Assembly (NCBI RefSeq): GCF_040207125.1
Contig: NZ_CP157940.1
Location: 2,170,001-2,234,000 of the forward strand
Direction of reading: 5' to 3'
Length of the DNA: 64,000 nucleotides
Source of the DNA: Lacrimispora sp. BS-2
GTDB taxonomy: Bacteria; Bacillota; Clostridia; Lachnospirales; Lachnospiraceae
This document shows, in pieces, positions 11,100-44,067 of this stretch. Both the position numbers and the translations under genes were made by a program. Numbering within the stretch: position 1 is the stretch's first letter; each line of letters opens with the position of its first letter. The notes under the pieces were generated by a model. That model had not been told where the DNA came from and did no database searches. It saw only the letters and a program-made list of their open reading frames with translations.

Positions 11100-11143
11100 T
11101 TACCAAATAAAATAAGGGTGAAGCCCTCAAAATGGCTTCACCC
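11100..11143 (-). terminator. radA terminator overlapping its stop codon
   Basis: GGGTGAAGCC pairs with GGCTTCACCC across an 8-nt loop, followed by TTATTTTATTT on the minus strand. The upstream arm contains the last codons of radA, so the stop codon lies inside the hairpin. Confidence 0.8.
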
Positions 11144-12529
11144 CATAACCCTTACAATAGCCTCTCTTACATTCCCGACTCCAATCAGGCGCATCCCTTC
11201 CACCTTCCCCATCTTTCCCAGGGAAATTTCCGGCATTACGCAGGTATTAAATCCCAGCTTCTTCGCCTCATTCACTCTCTGCTGAGCCATGGACACGGCC
11301 CGCACCTCTCCTGCCAATCCCACTTCCCCGAAAATAATGGTTTTCGGATCCACGGCCTTGTCCTTCATGCTGGATACAATCGCCATAATAATGGCTAAGT
11401 CTAAAGCAGGCTCATTCATACGTAAGCCGCCAGTAATATTCACATAAGCATCAAAATGAGACAGGTCATAATGGCACCGTTTTTCCAAAACAGCCATCAA
11501 AAGGTTTACCCTGTTATAATCCGTACCTGCCGCAGTACGCCTGGGCATACCAAAGGCTGTTGGAGTAACAAGGGCCTGAACCTCCAAAAGCATGGGTCTG
11601 GTGCCTTCCATGGAACAGGCAACCACTGCACCGGAGGCATCCTCCGGCCTTCCGCTGAGCATGTATTCCGAAGGGTTCTTCACCTCGGAAAGCCCGCTCT
11701 CAACCATTTCAAAAACGCCGATCTCATTGGTGGACCCAAAACGGTTCTTCACTCCCCGGATGATCCGGTAAGAAGCGCTTCTGTCTCCTTCAAAATATAA
11801 AACTGTATCAACCATATGCTCTAAGACTCTGGGACCGGCCACCACACCTTCTTTTGTTACATGGCCGACGATGAATATGGCAATTCCCGCACCCTTGGCG
11901 ATCTGAAGCAGGATATTGGTAGATTCCCTTACCTGGCTGACACTTCCCGGGGCGGAAGAAATTTCTTCCCGGAACATGGTCTGTATGGAATCAATGATCA
12001 CCACATCCGGCTTTTCTTCCTCAATAGCACTTTCAATCAGCTCCAGTCCTGTTTCACAAAGGAATAATAAATCCCCCTTCACTTCCCCGATCCGGTTTGC
12101 CCGCAGCTTAATCTGTTTTAAGGATTCCTCTCCTGATATGTAAAGCACCTTTCTGCTGTCGGCTGCCAGGTTGCGGCATACCTGCAAAAGCAGCGTGGAT
12201 TTGCCAATGCCCGGATCACCGCCAACCAACACGAGAGAGCCTTTGACAACACCCCCGCCAAGAACCCGGTCCAGTTCCTCATATCCGGTTTTCATCCGGT
12301 CCTGCTCGTCTAATTGGATTTCAGACAACCGGGAAGGCCTGGCATTCATGAAATGATTTCCTGCAGTCGCTTTTCCACTGATTCCCCGCTTAGCCGCAGG
12401 TTCTTTTTTTCCGGCAGGCTCCTCCACAAACGTATTCCATTCCTTACAGGCCGGGCACTGCCCCAGCCATTTTGCCGATTCATATCCGCATTCCTTACAG
12501 AAGAATGCTGTTGTTTTCCCCTTTGCCAT
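11138..12529 (-). CDS. radA: DNA repair protein RadA
   Basis: RadA is a RecA-like ATPase that drives branch migration of recombination intermediates. The start ATG 12529 (MAKGKTTAFF) is chosen over a longer frame because GGAGG precedes it. The 463-residue protein shows the N-terminal zinc finger (CKECG...CPAC), Walker A GDPGIGKST, the RadA-specific KNRFG motif and a C-terminal Lon-like domain (ITGGLRMNEPALDLAI). Length and order are normal. In many Firmicutes radA lies near clpC and mcsAB, as it does here, separated by one unknown gene. Confidence 0.97.
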   Translation of the reverse strand: MAKGKTTAFFCKECGYESAKWLGQCPACKEWNTFVEEPAGKKEPAAKRGISGKATAGNHFMNARPSRLSEIQLDEQDRMKTGYEELDRVLGGGVVKGSLVLVGGDPGIGKSTLLLQVCRNLAADSRKVLYISGEESLKQIKLRANRIGEVKGDLLFLCETGLELIESAIEEEKPDVVIIDSIQTMFREEISSAPGSVSQVRESTNILLQIAKGAGIAIFIVGHVTKEGVVAGPRVLEHMVDTVLYFEGDRSASYRIIRGVKNRFGSTNEIGVFEMVESGLSEVKNPSEYMLSGRPEDASGAVVACSMEGTRPMLLEVQALVTPTAFGMPRRTAAGTDYNRVNLLMAVLEKRCHYDLSHFDAYVNITGGLRMNEPALDLAIIMAIVSSMKDKAVDPKTIIFGEVGLAGEVRAVSMAQQRVNEAKKLGFNTCVMPEISLGKMGKVEGMRLIGVGNVREAIVRVMG

Positions 12530-12545
12530 GGAATTCCCTCCTAAC

Positions 12546-12588
12546 GAAAAAATCTGGGCCCGGCTCTTCATAAAAGAGCCGAACCCAG
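12546..12588 (-). terminator. Rho-independent terminator after the 137-residue protein gene
   Basis: A long hairpin (CTGGG-CCGGCTCTT arm, 12554-12568, pairing with AAGAGCCG-ACCCAG) is followed on the minus strand by six T residues. It lies between the unknown gene and radA and partly overlaps the region just upstream of the radA ribosome site. Confidence 0.8.
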
Positions 12589-12600
12589 CTTTACATCCTG

Positions 12601-13014
12601 TTATCTTCGCTTGATCTTCACTGCTACAGGTGTTTCTTCATTCAGTTCTACGCTGATGGACAGCTTTCCGCTCATATTGGTTCTCATGCCTCCAACGGCA
12701 GCATCAGCCACAAACACCTCATATTCCGTATCCTCTGCCAGCTGAATGGTCAGCTGTGCATCCTTGTCACCTTCTACTAAAAATTCCACTCCGTCATTGG
12801 ATACGGTGAAATTCATGGCAGCGGTTCCCGGTACGGATTCATATACGAACATGCCGTTTCGTTCCAGCTTGGTTATTTCATAAAAGGTCTTTACTTTATA
12901 TAAATCACCATCGTGCTCAAAATCCTGTAATTTTGACTTTGTCTTTAATTTGTAATTACCAAAACTGATCGTTCCGTCTTGTTCTGTACGGATTAATTCT
13001 TCAATTACCGGCAT
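12601..13014 (-). CDS. Conserved 137-residue protein of unknown function
   Basis: ATG 13014 follows GGAGGGCAAACC. The product is soluble, with no signal or membrane segment, rich in beta-strand-like alternation (FGNYKLKTKSKLQDFEHDGD) and with a regular C-terminal half ending in KIKRR. Similar proteins in clostridial genomes sometimes carry the label endosialidase, but no catalytic sialidase motif is visible here and I do not adopt that name. It forms its own unit between clpC and radA with a strong terminator. Confidence 0.75.
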   Translation of the reverse strand: MPVIEELIRTEQDGTISFGNYKLKTKSKLQDFEHDGDLYKVKTFYEITKLERNGMFVYESVPGTAAMNFTVSNDGVEFLVEGDKDAQLTIQLAEDTEYEVFVADAAVGGMRTNMSGKLSISVELNEETPVAVKIKRR

Positions 13015-13115
13015 TGGTTTGCCCTCCTAGTATTTTGTTTACTTATCCTTTTTAAGGCGATGAACAAATGATTTCGCTTGTAGCTATTATACACGAATTG
13101 ATATGAAAAGGCTAG

Positions 13116-15566
13116 TTATTTCACCAGTTCCTTAACAGAAAATTTTAATCCGTCCTCACCTGCAGTCACAGCAACGTTATCCCCTGTTTTTACCGTTCCA
13201 TTTAAAATTTCTTCTGCCAGCTTATCCTCCAGGCAGTTCTGAATGGTACGCCTTAAGGGTCTTGCACCGTATTTCTCATCATATCCCTTATTGATCAGGT
13301 AATCCTTTGCATCCTCTTCGATTTCCAGGGTGATGCTCATCTGTTCTGATGTCCGCTTCATGATATCCTTTACCATGATCGTCACAATATCCTTCATGTG
13401 CGTCTTATTTAACGTATGGAATACGATGATCTCATCGATCCTGTTAATGAATTCAGGCTTGAACAAACGCTTTACTTCTTCCATTACCCGGTCCTTCATG
13501 ATTTTATAATCAGCCTTTTCATCTGAAACCGCACCAAAGCCCAGACGTTTTGGAGATATGATGTTCTCCGCTCCTGCATTGGAGGTCATGATGATAATGG
13601 TATTCTTAAAATCAATCTTCCGGCCCTGGGCATCTGTAATATGACCGTCATCAAGCACCTGGAGCAGAATATTGAACACATCAGGATGGGCCTTTTCAAT
13701 CTCATCAAACAATATGACAGAATAGGGATTCCTGCGGACCTTTTCACTTAGCTGTCCGCCCTCGTCATAACCTACGTATCCTGGCGGTGAGCCAATCATC
13801 TTGGAAACGCTGTGCTTTTCCATATACTCAGACATGTCTACCCGGATCAGGGCGTTTTCCGTACCGAACATGGCTTCTGAGAGGGCCTTGGATAACTCGG
13901 TTTTTCCCACGCCCGTAGGCCCTAAAAACAGGAAGGAGCCAATGGGGCGCTTAGGATCCTTAAGTCCCACTCTTCCCCGCCGTATGGCCTTTGAAACAGC
14001 GGTAACCGCTTCCTCCTGGCCGATTACCCTCTCATGAAGGATATTTTCCAGATTGCAGAGGCGTTCGCTCTCTCCCTCTTCCAGCTTTCTTACAGGGATC
14101 TTAGTCCAGCTTGATACCACATCAGCGATCTCTCCCTCATCGACTATAAGGTTTTTTGAGGTTTTTTCCTTCTGCCAGCGCTCCCGGATCTTTTCTATCT
14201 TTTCCCGCTTCTTTTCCTGTTTTTTCTTAATGGTTCCAGCCTTTTCATAGGCTTCGGCCTTAATGGCTGCTTCCTTCTGATCCTCCAGCAGTTCGATCTC
14301 AGCTTCCAGTTCCTTAATTTCTGCCGGTTCCACAAATGTGGTCAGGCGTACCTTGGAAGAAGCCTCATCAATGACATCAATGGCCTTATCCGGAAGGAAA
14401 CGGTCATTGATATACCTGGAAGACAGCTTTACCGCAGCCTTTATGGCATCTTCTGTAATGGTCACCTTGTGATGATCCTCATACCGTCCCTTAAGCCCTC
14501 TTAATATGCCGATAGCAGCTTCTTCGGAAGGCTCCTCCACCGTAACCGGCTGGAAACGCCGTTCCAGGGCAGAGTCCTTTTCAATATATTTACGGTATTC
14601 TTCAATGGTGGTGGCACCGATCAGCTGCAGTTCTCCTCTTGCCAGGGAAGGTTTTAATATATTGGAGGCGTCAATGGCTCCCTCCGCTCCGCCGGCACCG
14701 ATAATCGTATGGATCTCATCGATGAACAAAAGGACTTCCCCATCATCGATCACCTCGGCAATCACCTTTTTAATTCTCTCTTCAAATTCTCCCCTGTATT
14801 TGGAACCGGCCACCATGCCGGATAAATCCAGGGTCAGAAGCCTTTTATCTGCAATGGTTTCAGGTACATCACCTCCTGCTATCATCTGCGCCAGGCCTTC
14901 CACAACTGCTGTCTTACCCACTCCAGGCTCTCCGATGAGACATGGATTGTTCTTGGTTCTCCGGCTCAGTATCTGGATCAGCCGCTTGATCTCCGACTCT
15001 CTTCCAATGACCGGATCAAGCTTTCCCTGTACCGCAAGCTCCGTCAAATCCCTGCTGTAGCTGTCAAGAGTCGGTGTGCTCCCCTTTGCCTTTGGTGATT
15101 TCAATAACTCTTCTTTATTGGCAGGAGCATCCTCTCCCATAGCGGAAAGCACATCAATATAAAGCTTTTGAATGCTGATCCCAATGGTATTTAAAAGCCT
15201 GGAAGCGACGCAGTCATTGTCACGGATTATGGAAATGAGCAAATGTTCTGTACCGATTAAGTTTGCTTTAAACCGCACGGCTTCCCGGTAGCTGTTCTCA
15301 AGGACCCTTCTGGCACCAGGAGTATACCCTCCGTCTTCTTTCAGACGGACTGCCTGATCGGGAGCGATAAGCTGGCTGATCAGGTTTAAAACCTTATCCT
15401 CTTTTACCCCGTTCTCTTCCAGGACCCTGGCAGCCACTCCGCTGCCCTCTTCTAAAAGCCCCAGTAATAAGTGCTCCGTTCCCACATAGCTGTGGCCAAG
15501 ACGTTCCGCTGCCTGCACAGCCAGATTAATGGCTGTCTTGGCCTTTGTCGTAAATCTGTCTATCAT
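13116..15566 (-). CDS. clpC: ATP-dependent Clp protease ATPase subunit ClpC
   Basis: ClpC unfolds substrates for ClpP and, in Firmicutes, recognises phospho-arginine-marked proteins made by McsB. The 816-residue protein has two N-domain repeats (FTTKAKTAINLAVQAAERLG; from about 85 a second copy), AAA-1 with Walker A GEPGVGKTA, a coiled middle domain with a UVR motif (about residues 420-460), and AAA-2 with GPTGVGKTE and a C-terminal D2 domain. The start has AGGAGG upstream. It is the last gene of the GntR-mcsA-mcsB-clpC series; a strong hairpin separates it from mcsB. Confidence 0.97.
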   Translation of the reverse strand: MIDRFTTKAKTAINLAVQAAERLGHSYVGTEHLLLGLLEEGSGVAARVLEENGVKEDKVLNLISQLIAPDQAVRLKEDGGYTPGARRVLENSYREAVRFKANLIGTEHLLISIIRDNDCVASRLLNTIGISIQKLYIDVLSAMGEDAPANKEELLKSPKAKGSTPTLDSYSRDLTELAVQGKLDPVIGRESEIKRLIQILSRRTKNNPCLIGEPGVGKTAVVEGLAQMIAGGDVPETIADKRLLTLDLSGMVAGSKYRGEFEERIKKVIAEVIDDGEVLLFIDEIHTIIGAGGAEGAIDASNILKPSLARGELQLIGATTIEEYRKYIEKDSALERRFQPVTVEEPSEEAAIGILRGLKGRYEDHHKVTITEDAIKAAVKLSSRYINDRFLPDKAIDVIDEASSKVRLTTFVEPAEIKELEAEIELLEDQKEAAIKAEAYEKAGTIKKKQEKKREKIEKIRERWQKEKTSKNLIVDEGEIADVVSSWTKIPVRKLEEGESERLCNLENILHERVIGQEEAVTAVSKAIRRGRVGLKDPKRPIGSFLFLGPTGVGKTELSKALSEAMFGTENALIRVDMSEYMEKHSVSKMIGSPPGYVGYDEGGQLSEKVRRNPYSVILFDEIEKAHPDVFNILLQVLDDGHITDAQGRKIDFKNTIIIMTSNAGAENIISPKRLGFGAVSDEKADYKIMKDRVMEEVKRLFKPEFINRIDEIIVFHTLNKTHMKDIVTIMVKDIMKRTSEQMSITLEIEEDAKDYLINKGYDEKYGARPLRRTIQNCLEDKLAEEILNGTVKTGDNVAVTAGEDGLKFSVKELVK

Positions 15567-15598
15567 AAATGCAATCCTCCTGTCATTTTAATTTACGC

Positions 15599-15647
15599 GG
15601 GCAGCAAGCCGGACGAACATGGCTGCATGTTCATTCGGCGGCTGCCC
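15599..15647 (-). promoter_or_regulatory. Strong hairpin between mcsB and clpC
   Basis: The 114-bp gap between mcsB and clpC holds a near-perfect stem: GGGCAGC/GCTGCCC at the base and TGAACATG/CATGTTC nearer the loop. No T-tract follows, so it is more likely an RNA-processing, stability or partial attenuation element than a full terminator. Confidence 0.6.
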
Positions 15648-15680
15648 CGATAGCAGTAAAAAACCCTTAAACCGTGTTTC

Positions 15681-16721
15681 TTACAGCTCCGGTAATTCCT
15701 TCCGGATAAATTCCGCCCTGGCTCCATCCAGTTCTTCCTTGTTTAATGGACGGTCTGAAAGCTTCTGTAAATTCGCCGGCTGGATTCCAAGCATCAGGCG
15801 GTAGACGGAAAAATCTTCCTCCGTATGGATCAGGCCGTCTGCCAGTCCTGCCATGATCTGTGATAGGAAAATCATGGCGTCCCGGGAAGTCAGCCTTCTG
15901 GAGTATTTTAATACCCCATAGGATTTGTATACCTCATCTTCTCTCTCACCTCTGTGCCTCTGGAGAGAAAGCTTTCTTACCTGAAGCTCCTGGTTGGTCA
16001 GCTGAATGGCTGCCTTTGTAACCGTATCTAAGATCTCCCGCTCCGTCTGGCCCAAAGTCTTCTGGTTTGATATCTCATAAAGGGAGCCAAAGTTCTCATC
16101 CCTTTCCCCATGAACACCCCGGATGGAAGCCCCGAACCGGCCCATATCACTGATAAGGCCCTGGAACTTTCTTCCCTGGGACAGCATGGGAAGGTGCACC
16201 ACCACCGATGCCCTTAAACCGGTCCCCATATTGGTGGGAAAGGAGGTGAGATAACCGTAACGGTCATCAAATGCATATGCAAACCGTTCATTGATATAAT
16301 CATCAATTCTGTCCGCCCTTTCCCAAAGTTCTTCCAGATGAAGTCCCATCTGGAGAAGCTGGATCCGGATGTGGTCATCGCAGTTAAGTACAATGCCTGT
16401 ATCTTCATTCTCGGAAATAAGAATGCCGGCAGGCTTCTTATTGGAAACGGCTGCCGAATTAAGGACCCTCCGCTCTTTAAGAGCCGTCCGGTCCAGTTCT
16501 TCCAACTCCCCAAGCATGGCAAACTCAAAATTCTTTCCTTCTGCCTTGCCTAAATCCTTTAAGCCAAACTCCAGTCTGTGGACCATCTCGCTGCTTTCCT
16601 TTTCATCAAGGGCTGCTGGAAACCGGTAATCCTGCCAGTTCCTGACCAGGCGGATCCGGCTGCTTATTACTCCAGGCCGACCAGTGTCCTTCTGTTCAAA
16701 CCATCTAAGCATCTGTCTCAT
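15681..16721 (-). CDS. mcsB: Protein-arginine kinase McsB (active-site Cys replaced)
   Basis: McsB phosphorylates arginines on proteins to mark them for ClpCP. The 346-residue product aligns over its whole length with the ATP:guanido phosphotransferase fold: VISSRIRLVRNW near the start and TNMGTGLRASVVVHLP in the core. In McsB of Bacillus/Geobacillus and in arginine kinases the last motif is preceded by a catalytic-site Cys (CPTN). Here codon 161 is TTT, giving SFPTN. The rest of the core is intact. Whether kinase activity remains is open. The gene overlaps mcsA by 17 bp and is followed by clpC, fixing its identity. Confidence 0.93.
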   Translation of the reverse strand: MRQMLRWFEQKDTGRPGVISSRIRLVRNWQDYRFPAALDEKESSEMVHRLEFGLKDLGKAEGKNFEFAMLGELEELDRTALKERRVLNSAAVSNKKPAGILISENEDTGIVLNCDDHIRIQLLQMGLHLEELWERADRIDDYINERFAYAFDDRYGYLTSFPTNMGTGLRASVVVHLPMLSQGRKFQGLISDMGRFGASIRGVHGERDENFGSLYEISNQKTLGQTEREILDTVTKAAIQLTNQELQVRKLSLQRHRGEREDEVYKSYGVLKYSRRLTSRDAMIFLSQIMAGLADGLIHTEEDFSVYRLMLGIQPANLQKLSDRPLNKEELDGARAEFIRKELPEL

Positions 16722-17322
16722 TTCCTTTCTTCAGCTCTCTTATCTTATCGCGGCATACGGCTGCCATCTCGTAATCCTCAAAGCGCAGGGCTTCCTTTAA
16801 TTTGGCATCCCACTGAAAGATTTCCTCACGGTTGCCCACGCTTTTGGGGTGCAACGGCATGCCCTCAGAATGGCCGTCCTGAAAGCCGGAAGCAGTGTCT
16901 CCTTCTTCCCCTGTTCCCAGTCTTATGTTCATGTAGTCCTGCCTCTGGTAAACCGGTGTTTTTCCCGTATGGATGAGATTTCCATGAAGCTGCTTTAAGC
17001 TCTCTTCCATCAGAGGGCCGAACACACTGTAACAATCTGCACAGCCGAATCTGCTGTCTCTGACAAATTCATCGTACCCGGTTCCGCAGGTCGGGCACAT
17101 GATCTGATGGAGCTTATCCGGCTCCTGATCTGTATCTTCTATTCCCAAAAGACCGGAAAGCAGTTTTCCTAAGGGAAACTCTCCGTCAAAAATAGCTGCG
17201 TACACGCCAAAATCCATCTCTTTTGCGCACTGGGCACAAAAATGATGCTCTTTCCTTGTCCCATTTACAACTTCTGTATATTGTATATTTGCTTCGCGAA
17301 TTTTACATCTTTCACATAACAT
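16705..17322 (-). CDS. mcsA: McsA-type zinc-finger activator of McsB
   Basis: McsA stimulates McsB kinase and, with it, delivers substrates to ClpC. The 205-residue protein has four CxxC motifs: MLCERC, HFCAQC, CPTC and CADC (pairs near residues 3-6, 29-32, 80-83 and 99-102), forming two zinc-binding modules. A C-terminal UVR motif (LKEALRFEDYEMAAVCRDKI) is also present. The middle linker is somewhat longer than in Bacillus. It follows the GntR gene by 22 bp and overlaps mcsB. Confidence 0.93.
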   Translation of the reverse strand: MLCERCKIREANIQYTEVVNGTRKEHHFCAQCAKEMDFGVYAAIFDGEFPLGKLLSGLLGIEDTDQEPDKLHQIMCPTCGTGYDEFVRDSRFGCADCYSVFGPLMEESLKQLHGNLIHTGKTPVYQRQDYMNIRLGTGEEGDTASGFQDGHSEGMPLHPKSVGNREEIFQWDAKLKEALRFEDYEMAAVCRDKIRELKKGNETDA

Positions 17323-17344
17323 AATGAACCTCCAATCCAGTGAA

Positions 17345-17731
17345 TCACTCTTCCCTCTGGCCCCTTAAAAATGACTGGAATATTTCATCAACCAGCTGGT
17401 GAACCTCTTCACATGATACATTTTTACAGACTCCTCTGGCAAGCACAACTCCTAAATCTTTGCGCATTTCATCAAGGACCTGGATTTTATCCACGTCCAG
17501 GGACACTACGGCCCCTTTACGGCGGTCCAGCTTGACGAACCCTTCCTGTTTCAGCACAGAGTACGCCTTATTTACCGTATGCATATTAATACCTATGTTG
17601 TCGGCCATCTGGCGCACGGAAGGCAGGGGGTCACCTTCTCTTATACTTTCAGTGGCGATTCCTATGATTATCTGGTTCCGAAGCTGGATATATATGGCTT
17701 CATCACTGTTAAAATCAATTTGTAAAAACAT
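17345..17731 (-). CDS. YtrA-type GntR transcriptional regulator heading the mcsA-mcsB-clpC operon
   Basis: The start ATG 17731 gives MFLQIDFNSDEAIYIQLRNQ, the usual beginning of short YtrA-subfamily GntR regulators; a longer frame lacks support. The 128-residue protein has a winged helix (REGDPLPSVRQMADNIGINM, then HTVNKAYSVLKQEGFV) and a short C-terminal helical dimerisation part, with no ligand domain. In Bacillus the first gene of this operon is ctsR; no CtsR-like protein is encoded here. The gene sits directly behind a consensus promoter, followed by a TATAAC direct repeat that may be its own operator. It may be the operon's regulator; its signal is unknown. Confidence 0.9.
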   Translation of the reverse strand: MFLQIDFNSDEAIYIQLRNQIIIGIATESIREGDPLPSVRQMADNIGINMHTVNKAYSVLKQEGFVKLDRRKGAVVSLDVDKIQVLDEMRKDLGVVLARGVCKNVSCEEVHQLVDEIFQSFLRGQREE

Positions 17732-17748
17732 ATTTTCACCATCTTTCG

Positions 17749-17794
17749 TTATATCTGTTATACACATAATAGCACAACCCATTGCCTTTTTCAA
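17749..17794 (-). promoter_or_regulatory. Sigma-A promoter of the GntR-mcsA-mcsB-clpC operon
   Basis: On the minus strand TTGAAA (17789-17794) and TATTAT (17766-17771) are spaced by 17 bp, close to the consensus. Just downstream the start region carries TATAAC-AGA-TATAAC (about 17750-17764), a direct repeat well placed for a repressor. No GGTCAAA-type CtsR heptads are seen. Confidence 0.75.
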
Positions 17795-17928
17795 CATAAA
17801 AAATCAATTGGCATCATTCCCCTTTTTAAACGTTGCATGGGATCCGTCCTGCTGGTCATTATATGGTCAGATTTCTTAAAATATAAATTGATTTTTTCTA
17901 CCGGTTCCTTATGATAAAAGCCTATAAC

Positions 17929-17954
17929 GAAAGCACCTTCATTCAGGTGCTTTC
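17929..17954 (-). terminator. Terminator-like hairpin after the cohesin gene
   Basis: GAAAGCACC/GGTGCTTTC with an 8-nt loop lies 30 bp beyond the cohesin stop. On the minus strand it is followed by GTTAT, a weak T-tract, so efficiency is uncertain. Confidence 0.55.
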
Positions 17955-17984
17955 ATCACTGTCATTCTAATTGTTTACAATTCT

Positions 17985-19817
17985 TTAATCATCCAGATCC
18001 AGGAACTCAAAGTCGTCTTCATCCTTGGCAGGCTCTTCTGCTTCCTTAAAGCCTTCCGGCTCCCTATAGCCCGGCCTTTGTCCGCCTTTTCCCTTTGGTT
18101 TCCCGGAATGGCCTTCCACAGAAGATGTCAGGTCCCGTTCTAATTCTTCCAAACTGGCTTCCTCGATGAAATCATCCTCGTCACGGATTTCTGATTCTGC
18201 CTCATCATCGTAATCAGGCTCGTCCACATATTCTTCCTGGTATTCCGGATCCAGTCCGGTTCTTAAGTTTTGTCTGTCAAATTCTTCCCTGCTGTATCTT
18301 TTGATCTTGCTTGTAGGGATTTCTTCCTCCGGCTCATCCCACAGTCTGTCATCTGCCGGTTTTGGTTCCTTTCCTTTACCGGAGCTGTCCCTGCCTGGCC
18401 GGATCGGGCCTGATCCGTTTCCTTTTCTTACAAGGACGATCACAGCAACCAGCAGGCCAAGGGCCGCGACGCTCACTGCAATTAAAATGTAGAACTGCCT
18501 GTAGTAATCCCTGGTCAGCCGGTCGTATGTGTTTGCCATTTCCACATACTTACTATTGGAAACCCCGGAAGCATAGTATTTTTGAATGGTCTTTTCAGTA
18601 AGATCATAACGGTAGAAACTCTTTTCTCCGTTCCAGTTCATTGCATAGAACAGGCAATATTGAGGCTCAGCCTCTGAGTCTTCCACCCAGCCGGTCACCC
18701 GCGCGCCGTCAATATCGGCCTGCCGTTCACGGAAGCCTTCCGGCACAACCGTATCCTTGTCAAGAGGAATGATGACAATGGCCTTTGCAATGGTCTCTAC
18801 CTGTACGAACTGGGCCCAGGAATCAGAGCCCTCATTATAAATGTAGAATCCGCCATTTCCTCCTGAATCCTTTAAATAAAGGAGAAGCAGGTCTTTTTCC
18901 AGTCCTTTTCCAGCCATGACTTCTGTTCCTTTATAGGAATAAGTCTGAGACTCAAAGCCTTCCGGAAGCGCTGCTTCATCAAAGGATGAAGCAATGCTGT
19001 ATTCCGTTCCGTTTATGGTCACCGCTGCCTCGCCGAATTCGGCCTCAGAAGTTTCTGTACTTCCTCCTGTGGCAGGGACTGTTTCTCCACCCTCTGCCTT
19101 TTTAACCTGAATGGTATAATTCTTAACGGTCTGCCCATCCTCTGCAGTTACCTTGACAACCACCTGGTTTTCTCCGGCCTTTAAGCCCTTTTCTCCCTGA
19201 AGAGTTACATGGGCGCCGGCATTGGCTGCCACCGCATTGACTACCAGGTCCACTGTGTTTGCGTCAACCTCTGCCGTATAGCTGTCAACAGCCGCAGAAA
19301 ATGCCGGAGTCAGGGTCCCTGGAGAAATTTTTAATGATTTCAGTGTTGCATCTTTTGAATATGTGGCAGGAGAGGTGACCTTAACCGATGAGCTCCCCTG
19401 CTTGCTGAGTGAAACCGCCTGGGAATCCACATCATAGATTTCCTGGGAAGTTATGCTGATCTGGGTATTTCCCGCCTGCAGAGCCTTAAACTTCAAGGTA
19501 AAACTAAAGGCCTTCTGATTGGCGGAATCCATGGTTCCTAAAACCTTAATAGCCCCTGCGCCGCCATTTGCATTGGTTCCCCCGACAAACTCCAAAATAT
19601 TCGGATCATAAGCCAGCATGATCTCCGCCGTACCCAGGGCGCTGTCACTGGTCACTTTCATGTTTACGGTTACTTCGTTCCCCACCATGACCGATGGGTC
19701 AGAAAACGCGATCTTGGCATCTGCGGCCCAGGATACCAGCCGTCCGGCAGGACAGGATATGGCAATCACACAGACCAGCATAATACCAGCCGTCAGTTTT
19801 TTTAGTTTCCTATTCAT
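17985..19817 (-). CDS. Membrane-anchored cohesin-domain protein
   Basis: The 610-residue protein begins with a signal sequence (residues 1-32, ending SWAA), followed by a cohesin domain (about 33-150; IAFSDPSVMVGNEVTVNMKV, LGTAEIMLAYDPNILEFVGG), then a cadherin-like beta-sandwich module (about 155-240; SLKISPGTLTPAFSAAVDSY), a folded middle region of unknown type, one membrane segment (about 440-462) and an acidic, basic-patch cytoplasmic tail ending DFEFLDLDD. Cohesins bind dockerins in a Ca2+-dependent way. The gene 24 bp upstream encodes a dockerin on a wall hydrolase, so this is probably its anchor at the membrane. There is no SLH or sortase signal. The long cytoplasmic tail could pass a signal or bind a partner; that is inference. 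Confidence 0.85.
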   Translation of the reverse strand: MNRKLKKLTAGIMLVCVIAISCPAGRLVSWAADAKIAFSDPSVMVGNEVTVNMKVTSDSALGTAEIMLAYDPNILEFVGGTNANGGAGAIKVLGTMDSANQKAFSFTLKFKALQAGNTQISITSQEIYDVDSQAVSLSKQGSSSVKVTSPATYSKDATLKSLKISPGTLTPAFSAAVDSYTAEVDANTVDLVVNAVAANAGAHVTLQGEKGLKAGENQVVVKVTAEDGQTVKNYTIQVKKAEGGETVPATGGSTETSEAEFGEAAVTINGTEYSIASSFDEAALPEGFESQTYSYKGTEVMAGKGLEKDLLLLYLKDSGGNGGFYIYNEGSDSWAQFVQVETIAKAIVIIPLDKDTVVPEGFRERQADIDGARVTGWVEDSEAEPQYCLFYAMNWNGEKSFYRYDLTEKTIQKYYASGVSNSKYVEMANTYDRLTRDYYRQFYILIAVSVAALGLLVAVIVLVRKGNGSGPIRPGRDSSGKGKEPKPADDRLWDEPEEEIPTSKIKRYSREEFDRQNLRTGLDPEYQEEYVDEPDYDDEAESEIRDEDDFIEEASLEELERDLTSSVEGHSGKPKGKGGQRPGYREPEGFKEAEEPAKDEDDFEFLDLDD

Positions 19818-19841
19818 ATTGTCTCCTATTTCTGTTGGACT

Positions 19842-22166
19842 TTAAAGTCCGAGGATTTTTTTCTGCAAAAGCAGAAGATCCTGTGAATTCACCTTGCCGT
19901 CTCCATTTAAATCAGCTGCCAGCTTGCCCTTCTCAGATATGGTTTCCAAATTCAGAAGGTAACGCTGAAGCTTCAGAACATCCAGGCTGTTTATTTTTCC
20001 GTCCCCATTAATATCTCCTTTTGCACTGGAGGAGGACTGGCCGTCGGCAGGAGCCTGGGTCTGCTGCGGACTGCCTGTGACAGCTTCGGTCACCTTAATG
20101 TCCGTTCCAGGTCCCTGGGCTATGACTCCTGTAGAAGTCTGAACGGAAATGCTCGTGGAACCATTGGGAGCTATGGTCACATTGCTCCCACCCGGTGTTC
20201 CTGCATTATCCGTACCGGAAGGCTTGGATACTCCCGGGCCGATGCTGCCGCCAGGGCCGGAAGAGGCATTGCCTCCGGAACCGGAAGAAGGATTGCCACC
20301 GGAGCCTGTTCCTGTACCAACGCCTGAGGTATAAGTAGGACCGTTGTTCTGGCGCACTACATGAAGGACGTATTCCCTGACACTTCCATTTTGGGCAGTA
20401 ACTGCCACCTTGATATCATTATTACCGCTTGAAAGCGATATAGTCCCTGTTCCTTTGACAGAAGCCAAAGAACTGAGGGCAGTTGCATACACGTTAATGC
20501 TTGATACTGCGGGATCCACAATTAAGTTGTATTCAAGGGTATCACGGCTAAAGGTAGGAGTCATGGAAAATCCCTCCACACTTAAGCCAGACAGCTTATT
20601 GTTTGGATTGCCGTCGCCCGTAGGCTGGCTGCAGGCGTTGTCAGGCATGTTATTATAAACCGGTATCTTAAACTCAAGCTCTGTCTGTTTCATATCACTG
20701 TTATAGGCCTTTGAATAAACAGCACCCTCTGATGCAGCTCCCTGCACATTGGTCATATACTGGTGTTTATATAAATTAGACCCCTGTACATTAAACTTCT
20801 TCAGATAAAAGGTATCCTGCCCAACTTTTACATAGTTATTACCATAATAGAACGCTCCGCCTAAAATTGATTTTTCAGGAGAATTCCATGGCCTTTCATA
20901 ATTGCCTGACTGGGACGCCCACCATAAGCCTCTTTGCACCGCGGTCATATTTCCGGATTGATATGCTTCTATATTAAAAAAATTATAATATCCTTCATAA
21001 CCGGATTCTTTACCTGAAATGCTTTTGCCTGATCCGGAAGATCCCTGCTCCTGAATGATCATGGCAGCAAGGACATAAGGGTTTACTCCTGACTGGGAAG
21101 CCGCATTCATGATCATGTTCACATAGGCACTGTTGCCTGTTACCGATCCAGTGATATTAGTATTGGATGAGGATGGTCCTGTCAGGCTGGCACCTGGCCC
21201 GTATTCCATGACAACGGGAAGGTTTTTAGGGGTTATGGAAGCCTGCGGCCCTTCCAGGCTGGCCTTTCCTGAATCGGTTTCCGATGCTGCCCCTGTACCG
21301 GGGTTAATAGCCGCACCCGGCCCAATGACAGCTCCTGGCCCTGTGACGGTGCCGCCGGAAGAACTGTCCGTATTTCCCGGGTTACTGCTTCCGCCGGAAG
21401 ATTCTCCGGATAAAAACGTACCCTTTACCATGGTCTTTAAGCCTTCTGCCGTATGCTTATTACTGTCATAGGTGTGGGTCATAAATTGGAATACATTGGT
21501 CTCATCAAGGAAATTTCTGGGATCCATATAATATCTTACAATATCCCCTGAAGCTGTGACCCAACTGCTTCCGTCATATCCGATCCATGTACTGGTGTCC
21601 CAGTTATAAGCGCCATCTACCGTAGATTTCCAGGATGACAGACTGTTGGTGTGGACCAAGGTCTTTCCTACCTGGCTTTCTTCCTTAACGGCTGTGTTCC
21701 AGTCCAGGTTTGTATGCTGGGCGCGGAATACCCACTTGGGATACTGGGCATGCAGCGTACGAAGCTTTACCTTATAGCTTTCCGGAAACCCTTCCGCAGT
21801 AAGCCGGGACTCAAAATCCGCATTATTGGTATAGGTGGCTGGAAACTTAAGATAGCTTTTGGAAACATATCCGGTAACTGCCTGGCCGCCGGAACCGGAT
21901 ACCCGGATCTGATACCAGAGCGCTCCATCCGAAGCGTTTTTTTCATCGATCACTGTTACCGATGCTCCATTTGTTAATTTTGTAACGACTGAATAGGTCG
22001 TACCCGGGCCGCTTCTCACATTCAATGTGGTGGCATTTACCGTTGCAGCCTTTTCCGTATAAGCATAAGCATTTATGTATGGCGAAACCGCTCCCATATA
22101 AGAGTCCATCACCAGGACGCTGGCCAGAATGACGGCCATCTTACGAGCTTTTTTATACTTTTTCAT
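19842..22166 (-). CDS. Dockerin-bearing glucosaminidase-type peptidoglycan hydrolase
   Basis: The 774-residue secreted protein shows, in order: a signal peptide (about 1-36), an SH3b wall-binding domain (about 40-108; TTLNVRSGPGTTYSVVTKL), a Trp-rich N-terminal module (about 115-245), a Ser/Gly/Pro linker, a glucosaminidase domain (about 345-500; VNPYVLAAMIIQEQGSSGSG, with a likely catalytic Glu), a cadherin-like module, a second low-complexity linker and a C-terminal type I dockerin with two Ca2+ loops (DINGDGKINSLD and DLNGDGKVNSQD). It should cut the glycan strands of peptidoglycan. It is cotranscribed with the cohesin protein, which suggests tethering rather than a cellulosome. The promoter is consensus. 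Confidence 0.9.
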   Translation of the reverse strand: MKKYKKARKMAVILASVLVMDSYMGAVSPYINAYAYTEKAATVNATTLNVRSGPGTTYSVVTKLTNGASVTVIDEKNASDGALWYQIRVSGSGGQAVTGYVSKSYLKFPATYTNNADFESRLTAEGFPESYKVKLRTLHAQYPKWVFRAQHTNLDWNTAVKEESQVGKTLVHTNSLSSWKSTVDGAYNWDTSTWIGYDGSSWVTASGDIVRYYMDPRNFLDETNVFQFMTHTYDSNKHTAEGLKTMVKGTFLSGESSGGSSNPGNTDSSSGGTVTGPGAVIGPGAAINPGTGAASETDSGKASLEGPQASITPKNLPVVMEYGPGASLTGPSSSNTNITGSVTGNSAYVNMIMNAASQSGVNPYVLAAMIIQEQGSSGSGKSISGKESGYEGYYNFFNIEAYQSGNMTAVQRGLWWASQSGNYERPWNSPEKSILGGAFYYGNNYVKVGQDTFYLKKFNVQGSNLYKHQYMTNVQGAASEGAVYSKAYNSDMKQTELEFKIPVYNNMPDNACSQPTGDGNPNNKLSGLSVEGFSMTPTFSRDTLEYNLIVDPAVSSINVYATALSSLASVKGTGTISLSSGNNDIKVAVTAQNGSVREYVLHVVRQNNGPTYTSGVGTGTGSGGNPSSGSGGNASSGPGGSIGPGVSKPSGTDNAGTPGGSNVTIAPNGSTSISVQTSTGVIAQGPGTDIKVTEAVTGSPQQTQAPADGQSSSSAKGDINGDGKINSLDVLKLQRYLLNLETISEKGKLAADLNGDGKVNSQDLLLLQKKILGL

Positions 22167-22234: not shown

Positions 22235-22264
22235 ATTATAATGACAAATGATACCATGTGTCAA
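22235..22264 (-). promoter_or_regulatory. Sigma-A promoter of the dockerin-cohesin operon
   Basis: TTGACA (22259-22264) and TATAAT (22235-22240) are both perfect consensus hexamers on the minus strand, spaced by 18 bp. The start codon lies about 65 bp further on. The region repeats ATGATAC on both sides of the -10, which may matter for regulation. Confidence 0.85.
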
Positions 22265-39147: not shown

Positions 39148-42100
39148 TTATGAAGCCTGCTGTATCCATTCTCCCTTTGCACCTACTCTATAGCCGTCCG
39201 GAGTAACCACATCCTGAGCAAGCTTTCCTACTGTCTCCTTGTAGCCTGGCCCGGATGGATAGAAATAATACCATATTCCATCAATCATGTTCCAGCCTGT
39301 ATACATTGCTCCGAAAGAAGCATCGTTTTGATTATGTAAGAAGTAAGTATTTCCATCAGCATCAGTAAACCAGCCGCTTCTCATATATCCCTGCTGGTCA
39401 AAGAGATACCATGTTAAAGTGCCGTTTAAATCAGCCCGATACCATTCATTTTTTGGATAAGTGCCATCTGGTTTTACGATCCACCAGCCTGTTTCATCTC
39501 GTTTCCATGTACCGCCTGTTTGAACAGAATTATTCTTTGAAGATGATGCGCCTTTGTCTGTAATACTGCTGCCGCCTGATGAGCTGTCTCCGTGGCTGCT
39601 GCCATTGCCGGTGCTGCCGCCTTCTTCCACAGTGCTGTTGTCTTTTTCATCCGCTTTAAATCTCACTTCTCCGGTTTTTTCATCATATTCAAACTGGCGA
39701 AGGGCAACTTCCTCTATGCCGGCAAATCCGATTTTTTCCAAAATGGCTTTTGCTCTGCCCATCATTTCTGCATTAGACTGATTGCTGTTAAGCAATTTTG
39801 CAAATTCAGCACTGTTATACTCAGAAGCATTTCTGCCTTCCATATTTGTCACAGTACCTTTGCCATATTCTTGCCCTGTAACGATCGTTCCTGCACCCTT
39901 TTTAGAAGCAATCTCTTCCAAACCGCTAATCTGAGGCGCATCTGTATTGAAATAGGCATTCTCTACATAGCCGATACCAGCTACACGGCCTGCGATGCCG
40001 CCTATATCTACAGTCGTGGCAGCCGTCTCTAATGCCATATTTGCAAAACTGTTGATGACAATGCCTGCATTCATGCCTGCGATACCGCCTATGGTCATTC
40101 TGGCCCCGTTGCCTTTGGCATAGATTTTTCCTTTGGCATAGTTGTTGATAAGAAGTGATTTGTTCGGTATCGCGCTGATGCCTCCACCATAAGCCCAACG
40201 TTCTTTGCTTTCACTTTTTATGCTTACATCAGTATATGAGTTTGCGATAATACCCCAGTTTATATTGCCAACCAGGCCTGCGGTGTCATTTTGCTTTGAT
40301 GACCAGCTCTCGATCACGCCTTTTGCATAACAATGATCTATATATCCGCCTATGTTTGACGGATTTTCAAAATATCCGGAAAGCAAACCCGTATAGGATA
40401 TGTTGCCGTCTCCCATATATTTGTTATAGACAGCCGCATTTTCAATGCCAAGATTCACCACATAGGCTGACTGCAGATTTGCAAACAAGCCTGCAGATAC
40501 GCAGTATGTTTCCGGACTTTCCTTTGTTCCAATGGTCATGTCACTGATAACGTGACCATTTCCGTCAAATGTGCCTCTGAATCCATATGCACCTGAACCG
40601 CCTGCCGGTATCCACTGGATTCCTGACAGAGAAATATCTCCATCAAGTCTTACATATTTTCCTTTATAATGCTCGTCTTCATTTATTGATGCCGCAAATG
40701 CCACCAGCTGCCCGGCAGTTTTGATCATGTATGGATTTTCTTTTGTACCGTCTCCTGCTTCGAAAATTGAAGGATCTGCATTTCCGTATCCTGTTAAATC
40801 ACGGATGGATGCTTTCTTGGCCGCTGCCGCTATAGCAGATTTAAGCAGCTTTGCCAAATCGCTGTCGCCTGCTAATTGTGAATAATCTTGTGTGGAAATA
40901 ACATATGCGATTACATCATCTGCTATGGCCTCTAAAGCCTGTCCCACGTCATTTCCAGTCATTTTTATGCCGGCAATCTTCCCATCTTTTACAGTCATTT
41001 CTACATAAACATACTTTCCTGCATCCGTCTTTGCTCTGCCATAGTATGTGCCGTCTGCTTTTTCTAAAGTGTTTGGCTCAAATATAGGTGTCATATCTGC
41101 ATACGTTGTTTCTGCTTGTTCACCAGTAGGACGTACTGTGCCGTCTGTAAGCTCCCAGGTTCTTAATTTCATGAAAGAAGGAAGCCCCATGGCATTCTGG
41201 TTGCCAATGTTTACACTGGTGCCATTGTTTAAATCCATAGGGAATGCAGTGAAATTCTTATTCAGCAATGCAGCAAAATCTTTCTCCTGCATCTGTGTTA
41301 ATGTCTTTGAATCAATACCCACATGGTATACGCCGTCATATGGCTCGCCCTCATCATTTATGCCCGCACTGACCATATAACCTACTGGGATAACCGGATT
41401 GCTGATGACACCATTGCTGTTTTGGCGCGCATCTGCGTTATAGTAGGATAAAAATTGTCTTGCAATACCTGTTGACCATCCTGCAAATGAACCTACATAG
41501 GTAGAAAATGACTCTGCTTTCATGTTGCCTGTAGAGTAGCAGTTTGCCACCTTACCTCCATTTACACCAATAAAGGAACCGATAGATGGCATGCCTTCAT
41601 TACCATCTTCACGGCTGGCTTTGCCTGCGACATCGCCTGCAGCATAGCAGTTTGCAATTACGCTTCTGTTGACCATGCCCACGAAGCCGCCGCCCTGTGA
41701 CAGGCCGCCTATGGCTTTGCAGTATACGTCTGCTTCTGACCAGGAGTTGATGATACCGCCTCTGATCGTCTGGCCTGCCAGTCCGCCTGTCCAAACATTG
41801 GCTTTCTTGTGTTTTGTTTCTGCATATATGCTTCCCTCTGTATGGCAGCCGTCAATAAATGCTTTTTCTGTAAGACCTGCTAAAAGACCCGCATAAGCGC
41901 TGGACGGATGGACTACTGCTATTTCTCCATCCACGATACTTAAATTTTTCACTACTGCATTTTCGCCTAATACACCGAAAAATCCATAGAACGTGGTCAT
42001 TTTGGCAGTATCATTCGTATCTGCCTTATCTTCTATATGGGGATTTTCAGCCGATCCAATGTTCATGCCTGTGATCACATGGCCGCGTCCATCAAAATTA

Positions 42101-44067
42101 CCCATAAAGTCATAATGTCCCTGTCCGATAGGCATCCATGTCTCACCGGATACGTCCACATCTTCATCTAAAGCGATATAAATTCCTGCATATTTCACAT
42201 CGTCTGTAAGTGAAACGGCAAACTTACGAAGCTGTGCTTCGGTTTTAAGAATATAAGGTGATTCTTCTGTTCCGTTACCGCTGTCAAATATGGTTGCATC
42301 TATGCTGTCGTCTACGAAAATATTGTTAGTTATAACTAACTCCTGATCAAAACTCCAGGCATAGAAATCCCCTATGGTGCGTACTGCCGCTGACAAATCG
42401 CCCATATTTGCCTGCTTTGCCGCCGCAATGGTCTCAGACGCTTTTGCAATCTCAGACCTTGTAAGACCATTATTTAATGTATCTGCCATAGTCTCACCAT
42501 ATAACTCCTCATCGGTAAGAGCTTTCACATTATTGGTGACATAGCCTGTTATTGTGTCACTTGCCAGCATAAATGGTTTTTCAGTTTTATTGCTGTAATA
42601 TCCATTTACTATTGCTGTAACCGCGCTGCCCATACCGCCGATACCGCCAACTAATTCTTTGGCATCTGCAGCACTTTCAGCCGTAATCATTGCGCCGGAA
42701 AACACATTGTAATATGTACCTGCTGCAATACCTGCAATACCGCCTGCAACTGCAAATAACTGTCCGCCGGTTTCTGCCGATACGCTTCCAAATGTTGCCG
42801 CATTGGCAATGATGCATTTATTATTTGATGCACCAACGATACCGCCTGCATATGTCACGCCTGACTGGGACACGGCTGATACATCAGCATTAACAGATAC
42901 ATTGGCAATGATAGATTCTCCTCCCAAAATTCCGGTAACAGCACCAGCGTAGCTTTTGGCAGAATGGCTTTCTATTTTGCCTGTAATAACTACATTATCA
43001 ATCAATACGTTTTTTTCTGTTTTTCCTGCAACTGCGCCTGCACATGCTTCAGCGCCAGAAGAAGTAATACTGATGTCCACATCTTCCAATTTGATATTTC
43101 TGACTTTGGCACCTGTTTTCATGCAGCCGAAAAGACCTGCGTATGCAAAACTGTCACTTGCGATCGTAAGTCCGTTAATGGTATGGTTCCGGCCATTAAA
43201 TGAACCTGCAAAACCATTGGCTCCAATACCGATCGGTGTCCACTGATCTTCCAATTCGATGTCAGCAGAAAGTTCAATATATTTGCCGCTATAGTCATTT
43301 CCTGCATTTACCTTATCAGCAAATCTCGTTAACTGTATACTGGTTGCCACGATAAATGGATCTGACTTACTGCCATTGCCATCCTGGAATACCTGGTTTT
43401 CTTTGATGACAGCTTTGGAAAGAGCGTCATTAACTGCTTCTTTGATACCGTTTGAACTCTTGGTAGCACCGGATACCCCATCTACATCCGTAGAATTAGC
43501 ATCTATAATAGTTGCAAATAATGCTTTTGCTTTCTCCCAATTATCCGGTGTGTCTCCTTGTGATACTTCTTCTATGTCTACAATAGCGTTATCTTTTATA
43601 GTGACCATTAGCGTTATCGTGCTTTTAAACCCCTTACCGGTCCCTGTGTACTCTCCATCTGCATAATCACCTGCAAGCCCTATAGTTCTCTCAAGGCTGA
43701 AATCGGGAAGCATCTCATTTACGATTTTCCCTGCCTGTGACGGCGTGGACTTGTCAGCCTGTGATGGTGTGGACTTGCCGGACTTTGATGGTACAGGCTT
43801 CTCAGCCTGTGATGGTGCGGACTTGCCGTAATGTGATGATGTGGACTTATCGGCCTGTGATGGTGCGGGCTTGTCAGCCTGTGATGATGCAGACTTGCCG
43901 GCCTGTGATGGTGTGGCCACGTTTGATGAAACTAACTGATCATTACTAAAATCTGACAGATCAGCAGGCTCTGCATATGCCGGCATAGCTGAGGACATAA
44001 GCATAATCAGAGCTAACGCGGCGCTTGCCTTTCGTTTCATACTTTGTCTGATTCGTGTAAAATTCAA
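39148..44067 (-). CDS. Large surface protein with FMN-binding domain, GLUG-type repeats and wall-binding repeats
   Basis: The 1639-residue protein starts at a TTG codon (44067) behind GGAGGAG; an ATG nine codons later is possible. It has a signal peptide ending MPAYA, a repetitive Ser/Gln/Lys/Pro spacer (about 50-115), an FMN_bind domain (about 130-225) with the flavin-attachment motif SGAT at 199-202 (Thr202), and three long homologous beta-repeat blocks, each opening with a GDGTKENPYMIKTAGQL-like motif and containing GLUG-type repeats. A second FMN_bind-like domain between blocks lacks SGAT. Choline-binding-type repeats at the C-terminus (GWWIVKPDGTYPKNEWY, GIWYYFYPSGPG) hold it on the wall. 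Covalent FMN outside the cell suggests redox or electron-transfer work; this is inference. It forms its own transcription unit. Confidence 0.85.
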   Translation of the reverse strand: MNFTRIRQSMKRKASAALALIMLMSSAMPAYAEPADLSDFSNDQLVSSNVATPSQAGKSASSQADKPAPSQADKSTSSHYGKSAPSQAEKPVPSKSGKSTPSQADKSTPSQAGKIVNEMLPDFSLERTIGLAGDYADGEYTGTGKGFKSTITLMVTIKDNAIVDIEEVSQGDTPDNWEKAKALFATIIDANSTDVDGVSGATKSSNGIKEAVNDALSKAVIKENQVFQDGNGSKSDPFIVATSIQLTRFADKVNAGNDYSGKYIELSADIELEDQWTPIGIGANGFAGSFNGRNHTINGLTIASDSFAYAGLFGCMKTGAKVRNIKLEDVDISITSSGAEACAGAVAGKTEKNVLIDNVVITGKIESHSAKSYAGAVTGILGGESIIANVSVNADVSAVSQSGVTYAGGIVGASNNKCIIANAATFGSVSAETGGQLFAVAGGIAGIAAGTYYNVFSGAMITAESAADAKELVGGIGGMGSAVTAIVNGYYSNKTEKPFMLASDTITGYVTNNVKALTDEELYGETMADTLNNGLTRSEIAKASETIAAAKQANMGDLSAAVRTIGDFYAWSFDQELVITNNIFVDDSIDATIFDSGNGTEESPYILKTEAQLRKFAVSLTDDVKYAGIYIALDEDVDVSGETWMPIGQGHYDFMGNFDGRGHVITGMNIGSAENPHIEDKADTNDTAKMTTFYGFFGVLGENAVVKNLSIVDGEIAVVHPSSAYAGLLAGLTEKAFIDGCHTEGSIYAETKHKKANVWTGGLAGQTIRGGIINSWSEADVYCKAIGGLSQGGGFVGMVNRSVIANCYAAGDVAGKASREDGNEGMPSIGSFIGVNGGKVANCYSTGNMKAESFSTYVGSFAGWSTGIARQFLSYYNADARQNSNGVISNPVIPVGYMVSAGINDEGEPYDGVYHVGIDSKTLTQMQEKDFAALLNKNFTAFPMDLNNGTSVNIGNQNAMGLPSFMKLRTWELTDGTVRPTGEQAETTYADMTPIFEPNTLEKADGTYYGRAKTDAGKYVYVEMTVKDGKIAGIKMTGNDVGQALEAIADDVIAYVISTQDYSQLAGDSDLAKLLKSAIAAAAKKASIRDLTGYGNADPSIFEAGDGTKENPYMIKTAGQLVAFAASINEDEHYKGKYVRLDGDISLSGIQWIPAGGSGAYGFRGTFDGNGHVISDMTIGTKESPETYCVSAGLFANLQSAYVVNLGIENAAVYNKYMGDGNISYTGLLSGYFENPSNIGGYIDHCYAKGVIESWSSKQNDTAGLVGNINWGIIANSYTDVSIKSESKERWAYGGGISAIPNKSLLINNYAKGKIYAKGNGARMTIGGIAGMNAGIVINSFANMALETAATTVDIGGIAGRVAGIGYVENAYFNTDAPQISGLEEIASKKGAGTIVTGQEYGKGTVTNMEGRNASEYNSAEFAKLLNSNQSNAEMMGRAKAILEKIGFAGIEEVALRQFEYDEKTGEVRFKADEKDNSTVEEGGSTGNGSSHGDSSSGGSSITDKGASSSKNNSVQTGGTWKRDETGWWIVKPDGTYPKNEWYRADLNGTLTWYLFDQQGYMRSGWFTDADGNTYFLHNQNDASFGAMYTGWNMIDGIWYYFYPSGPGYKETVGKLAQDVVTPDGYRVGAKGEWIQQAS
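43737..43925. repeat. 24-bp tandem repeat coding for SQADKS-type octapeptides
   Basis: About eight imperfect 24-bp units encode PSQADKSA/T-like octapeptides in the spacer between signal peptide and FMN-binding domain. Unit length preserves the frame, so the spacer can vary in length. The units differ at several positions. Confidence 0.85.

Follow-up and report, generated by a model that had tools for sequence, protein, structure and literature searches.

A dockerin-bearing SagB-like wall hydrolase and a single-cohesin membrane anchor are encoded side by side in Lacrimispora and its relatives

Most of what is known of cohesin-dockerin pairs comes from plant-fibre digestion. Here we describe a candidate pair of this kind in a 64,000-nucleotide stretch of the genome of Lacrimispora sp. 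BS-2 (contig NZ_CP157940.1, positions 2,170,001 to 2,234,000; the window), where two adjacent genes encode a wall hydrolase that ends in a dockerin and a membrane anchor that carries a single cohesin. An earlier note on this DNA had described a dockerin-ended SH3/glucosaminidase enzyme beside a single-cohesin, membrane-anchored protein, and analysis of the open reading frames with Pfam and NCBIfam confirmed that arrangement. The pairing is real and conserved, and is built from known parts in an apparently new combination. The features of the locus, in window coordinates, are listed below in the order in which the genes are read.

22235..22264, minus strand: promoter of sigma-A type, TTGACA-18-TATAAT, 12/12 consensus, preceding the hydrolase-anchor pair
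19842..22166, minus strand: hydrolase gene, 774 amino acids (open reading frame; Pfam/NCBIfam)
21846..22028, minus strand: SH3_3 domain, residues 47-107 (Pfam 51.7 bits)
21381..21833, minus strand: conserved N-domain, about residues 112-262, without a Pfam name (alignments of hydrolases)
20649..21125, minus strand: SagB/AtlE-like GH73 glucosaminidase domain, residues 348-506 (NCBIfam SagB; PDB 4pi7, 6fxo, 6u0o)
20349..20585, minus strand: Cadherin-like domain of the hydrolase, residues 528-606 (Pfam 38.5 bits)
19851..20021, minus strand: type I dockerin, residues 716-772, with two intact Ca2+ loops (Pfam 66.5 bits)
17985..19817, minus strand: anchor gene, 610 amino acids, single cohesin, one transmembrane segment (open reading frame)
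19353..19703, minus strand: cohesin domain, residues 39-155 (Pfam PF00963)
19101..19343, minus strand: Cadherin-like domain of the anchor, residues 159-239 (Pfam 43.1 bits)
18564..19052, minus strand: juxtamembrane domain, about residues 256-418, with an internal tandem duplication and without a Pfam name (hhalign of the halves)
18429..18488, minus strand: predicted transmembrane segment, about residues 444-463 (hydropathy maximum; long helix in the model)
17988..18428, minus strand: acidic, presumably cytosolic tail, net charge -25, ending DEDDFEFLDLDD (sequence; motif test)
17924..17959, minus strand: intrinsic-terminator-like hairpin, 3' of the anchor gene

The hydrolase is exported, bearing a signal peptide, and its GH73 domain is nearest to those of AtlE and SagB; the match to the NCBIfam SagB model (E 5.2e-12) lies under the model's own cut-off. 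The glutamate at residue 373, which we take to align with the catalytic glutamate of AtlE, is invariant in alignments of 9 and of 25 rows. The homologous domain and the conserved glutamate together mark the protein as a putative SagB/AtlE-like GH73 glucosaminidase. Its C-terminal domain shows the duplicated F-hand Ca2+ loops and the dockerin fold of a type I dockerin.

The cohesin of the anchor exceeds the PF00963 cut-off and has a cohesin fold, and nearly all matches listed in a fold search with the anchor model were cohesins. The juxtamembrane domain matched no Pfam family. Its two halves, of about 70 residues each, align with one another by hhalign (probability 97.9, E 3.5e-12), while control comparisons of the halves with the cohesin and Cadherin-like domains gave no hhalign match. 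A protein search with this region returned 129 proteins, the best 120 of which carry Cadherin-like and cohesin tags only, or none; it spanned proteins 0.55 to 1.75 times the length of the anchor, so that other architectures are possible. The long charged tail to which the earlier note drew attention is a less constant feature. It is acidic in the window and a short C-terminal motif recurs, with an acidic/aromatic pattern, composed after the tails had been viewed, present in 94 of 170 anchor tails (in shuffles, in 31.3 on average and 42 at most); by contrast, length and charge vary across anchors, and there is hardly any tail in several of the lineages where the pair persists (L036, L077, L128, L170). 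The juxtamembrane duplication and the recurrent tail motif suggest that the anchor may have roles beyond holding the enzyme. A second anchor subfamily, of about 500 amino acids with a cohesin and a juxtamembrane domain, lies between an LCP-type wall gene and glmS, both named from our reading of the open reading frames, and has no adjoining hydrolase (L038, L118, L123, L125, L130).

The dockerin of the hydrolase and the cohesin of the anchor are the only matches to either family in the 4.49-Mb genome. A cellulosome component was considered and rejected, as one cohesin and one dockerin match stand against the several cohesins of a scaffoldin and its several dockerin-bearing enzymes. Across 25 Lacrimispora genomes, 23 have a cohesin match, 24 have a dockerin match and 19 have exactly one of each; the cohesin/dockerin counts of the other six are 2/2, 0/0, 1/3, 1/2, 1/2 and 0/1. 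The two genes lie next to each other in the window, and do so too in the 21 genus loci that were retrieved with the two halves on a single contig. Exceptions are a genome with the halves on two contigs (G015), one with a frameshifted copy (G023) and an 82%-complete genome with neither gene (G004). The proposal of a minimal, non-cellulosomal, dedicated pair is thus borne out by these counts and by the adjacency. In one locus (L013) the region of the pair occurs twice in tandem, with frames that are fused and a stretch that is masked, which may stem from assembly. Another genus genome has a free-standing 71-residue dockerin-like open reading frame (L044:5839-6054), perhaps a remnant, beside what reads as a putative esterase gene.

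The gene pair was also found in other Lachnospiraceae, where the earlier note had suggested looking, in further genera and in some other families. Among 397 genomes of the family, 200 match the hydrolase profile, 144 have a dockerin match and 308 match the anchor profile, the last figure being an upper bound because matches to the Cadherin-like domain alone are included. At 1e-10 the anchor profile matches 55 of 196 genomes of the class, where most matches listed span the Cadherin-like domain only, and few near-full-length anchors come from outside the family (G477, G488, G518, G623). A dockerin-bearing hydrolase adjoins the anchor in two of these (L184, L186), and dockerin-bearing pairs occur in nine loci from metagenome-assembled genomes labelled uncultured Bacilli; at a locus labelled Erysipelotrichaceae (L177) the hydrolase is broken and the anchor gives no cohesin match. 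Deduplication left 154 distinct anchors that have a hydrolase next to them: 21 come from the genus and 133 from outside it, the latter mostly from the same family, with others from two further clostridial families and the Bacilli metagenomes. These counts are not frequencies in nature, because loci entered the set on the strength of their anchor or hydrolase scores. Cohesin and dockerin also occur together on single proteins in other families of the order (L039, L040, L041, L042); the dockerin of L041 is under the Pfam cut-off, and one of these proteins has BspA-type leucine-rich repeats.

We propose that the two proteins of the operon form a dedicated wall-hydrolase complex, in which the dockerin docked on the anchor cohesin would hold the hydrolase near the membrane, and we put the probability of this reading at about 60%. 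Its basis is the domain content, the folds of the docking modules, their one-to-one occurrence, the operon layout and the recurrence across genera. The predicted folds of cohesin and dockerin are both of high confidence in AlphaFold, and the Ca2+-loop pattern occurs twice in 69 of 95 distinct dockerins, once in 20 and not at all in 6. In the proposed mechanism, the single transmembrane helix would fix the anchor in the membrane, presumably with the tail in the cytosol and the cohesin displayed outside via two further beta domains. The signal peptide would export the hydrolase, and its C-terminal dockerin would then dock on the cohesin, probably in a Ca2+-dependent manner by analogy with known type I pairs. 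A SagB-like glucosaminidase kept close to the membrane in this way could trim nascent glycan strands, its presumed substrate, or set them free.

Several observations weigh against this proposal. The window cohesin scores 25.5 bits, barely over the PF00963 cut-off. When dockerin and cohesin were modelled by AlphaFold as one joined chain of 235 residues, the domains themselves were good and their relative placement was of low confidence; the predicted template modelling score (pTM) of 0.53 means that there is no confident docking. A mirror-tree comparison of dockerin with cohesin, using 40 thinned pairs of 74, found no specific co-divergence (partial r 0.08, p 0.18), and the value for dockerin against the Cadherin-like domain of the anchor was higher (r 0.15, p 0.03). 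Moreover, the pair is kept without a dockerin in 64 of the 154 cases, all outside the genus, with the neighbour retaining a cohesin-like domain, whereas 90 pairs (21 in the genus, 69 outside) have one. In Hungatella hathewayi (L147) and H. effluvii (L146), for example, the enzyme stops after the linker and the anchor still has its cohesin domain. Thirty no-dockerin loci were compared by hand: in 23 of their genomes PF00404 finds nothing at E 0.001, and the other 7 have a match somewhere. For 40 dockerin-bearing loci the corresponding genomes have exactly one dockerin match in 32 cases (in G173, on another contig), more in 6 and none in 2; as the hydrolases of these last two carry a dockerin by our own model, the Pfam search misses some. 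In one genome whose hydrolase lacks a dockerin (G033), the only dockerin match belongs to a protein in which two CBM26 stretches and an RHS repeat also occur (L037:6158-7186).

Loci were also approached from the enzyme. A set of 60 loci (61 hydrolases) was hand-picked from hydrolase-profile matches not already brought in by the anchor search, a choice that disfavours the best-scoring anchors. Dockerin-bearing enzymes had an adjoining anchor with cohesin and juxtamembrane domain in 16 of 19 testable cases, and enzymes without a dockerin had a cohesin neighbour in 29 of 40 (6 of the 29 without a juxtamembrane match), which is no significant difference (Fisher p 0.51). Because a cohesin neighbour is about as frequent without a dockerin, the hydrolase-anchor couple does not require it. 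The earlier note had counted the keeping of one gene without the other against docking: the genes do mostly occur together, yet many hydrolases lack the dockerin, as counted above, and some anchors have no neighbouring hydrolase.

The cohesin itself is more readily recognised as one when it faces a dockerin. With the domains cut out and thinned at 70% identity (55 of 90 and 50 of 64 remaining; kinship otherwise uncorrected), Pfam at E 0.001 found 49 of the 55 cohesins whose anchor faces a dockerin, and 31 of the 50 whose anchor does not (Fisher p 0.0013). For whole anchors, ten of each kind, a cohesin match at E up to 1 was found in 5/10 of both, and the Pfam cut-off was passed in 2/10 of those facing a dockerin and 0/10 of those facing none. 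Among the matches listed for cohesin domains of no-dockerin anchors, 26 of the 27 PDB sequences are cohesins, the exception being 7urp. When the groups are matched for GH73 identity, the no-dockerin group shows a slightly lower conservation of the cohesin relative to that of the juxtamembrane domain, again with kinship uncorrected; per-column conservation was set aside, since the dockerin group spans a wider range of kinship and this confounds the comparison.

In a tree built from 176 hydrolases, of which 94 have a dockerin and 82 do not, the trait requires 10 changes, against 58.7 in shuffles, and at least six are forced by well-supported branches; this is a quick tree with many weak inner branches, rooted by our choice on the Bacilli rows. 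Parsimony favours a dockerin at the root at every gain cost tried. The Lacrimispora dockerin is a regain if a gain is charged at 1 or 2 times the cost of a loss, and a retained ancestral trait at 5; the change counts at 3 equal those at 2, and an all-loss history appears only at 5.

Since the pair persists without it, the dockerin would be only one way of holding the couple across relatives. Membrane tethering by dockerin and cohesin, as the earlier note envisaged, is the likeliest reading for Lacrimispora and is not the whole story across the family. A wider formulation, which we regard as possible and offer tentatively, is an undescribed Lachnospiraceae-wide membrane complex of a SagB-like glucosaminidase and an anchor whose cohesin predates and also outlasts the dockerin, with the dockerin repeatedly lost and regained in Lacrimispora, and with the juxtamembrane duplication and tail motif linking wall cutting to a cytosolic partner. 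Somewhat doubtful, and still to be taken seriously, is the alternative that the couple works mainly through other surfaces (the juxtamembrane domain, the N-domain, the Cadherin-like domains), the dockerin being an auxiliary clamp that was lost and possibly regained and the cohesin-fold domain binding another ligand. The adjacency of the genes without any dockerin, the 23 genomes with no PF00404 match, the retention of a domain that still matches PDB cohesins and the missing co-divergence all fit that alternative; the weaker cohesin resemblance where the dockerin is absent and the retention of both Ca2+ loops in most dockerins do not.

The remaining explanations carry less weight. The anchor could be mainly a sensor of wall state that signals through its cytosolic tail, with the hydrolase as its ligand or reporter, and the recurrent tail motif is consistent with this. 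We consider it improbable, since tails are highly variable and nearly missing in four lineages that keep the pair, and no signalling gene was shown to be linked, the downstream GntR gene being merely a neighbour. The modules might instead be relics in decay: the Ig-type domain would resemble a cohesin, and it and the dockerin would no longer bind one another. The weak Pfam score and the low-confidence docking would agree with decay, whereas two intact Ca2+ loops, confident folds for both modules and conservation throughout the genus make it very improbable. Cellulosomes illustrate multi-protein use of dockerins, and the dockerin here could in principle serve a different cohesin or scaffoldin, on the same or another cell; with no second cohesin match in the genome, and a single cohesin in 22 of the 25 genus genomes (one has two, and two have none), we find this the least credible explanation of all.

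The anchor gene starts 24 bp downstream of the hydrolase gene, and the two are probably co-transcribed. The 12/12 consensus promoter is present in each of the 15 loci examined and, from its sequence, looks vegetative. The suggested role in division or sporulation gained no support, and sporulation was rejected for want of evidence and in view of this conserved promoter. The hairpin 3' of the anchor gene is weak by itself, because the region has 7 such sites against 5.0 expected from shuffles. A palindrome, TGACANATGNNNNCATNTGTCA, at window 22242-22263 overlaps the -35 element and spacer of the promoter; no other site in the genome matches it when up to 2 mismatches are allowed, and it is a candidate operator. 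A GntR-type gene (17345-17797) lies downstream of the anchor gene. In several distant relatives the anchor gene is just upstream of clpC and radA, with the GntR gene present or not (L084, L096, L099, L103, L121, L129; gene names from our reading of the open reading frames), and the window anchor gene is likewise near clpC and radA (11138-17797). Elsewhere in the window, 39148-44067 encodes a 1639-residue protein with a flavin mononucleotide (FMN)-binding domain and a borderline choline-binding repeat.

Known examples of non-cellulosomal cohesins join exported enzymes to one another. The anchor resembles those of Clostridium perfringens and Archaeoglobus (2jh2, 2w1n, 2vo8, 2xdh) in having a cohesin fold outside cellulosomes, and differs in that membrane tethering of a wall hydrolase is proposed; no such tethering by a cohesin was seen in the open-licence literature searched. 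In a case reviewed in PMC6403190, a peptidoglycan hydrolase likewise carries a dockerin and joins a multi-cohesin cellulosome, whereas here one cohesin, one dockerin and a transmembrane anchor are encoded in adjacent genes, with no other matches in the genome. ScaE of R. flavefaciens (PMC2930009) is a single-cohesin surface protein, sortase-linked to the wall, that holds a scaffoldin; it too captures a dockerin partner through one cell-surface cohesin, while our anchor has a transmembrane helix and faces one enzyme. In Staphylococcus aureus, according to PMC10581084, SpdC orients SagB to shorten glycan strands. That system (structure 6u0o) likewise sets a GH73 glucosaminidase of SagB type beside a membrane partner dedicated to it; SpdC, however, is a CAAX-protease homologue, whereas the anchor is a single-transmembrane protein with cohesin and beta domains, unrelated by Pfam (no CAAX-protease match of SpdC type at E up to 1). 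By analogy, a hydrolase-anchor couple comparable to SagB-SpdC is our best reading of the pair. The pairing is undescribed in the searches made of open-licence literature, and the survey Peer 2009 may already mention such proteins.

Taken together, the cohesin-dockerin pair appears here as a one-to-one tether for the cell's own wall hydrolase, recurrent in a major gut family. If this is true, many gut Firmicutes would possess a complex of SagB type built on another membrane partner, and the gene couple, which carries the docking module in some lineages and lacks it in others, would constitute a natural experiment.

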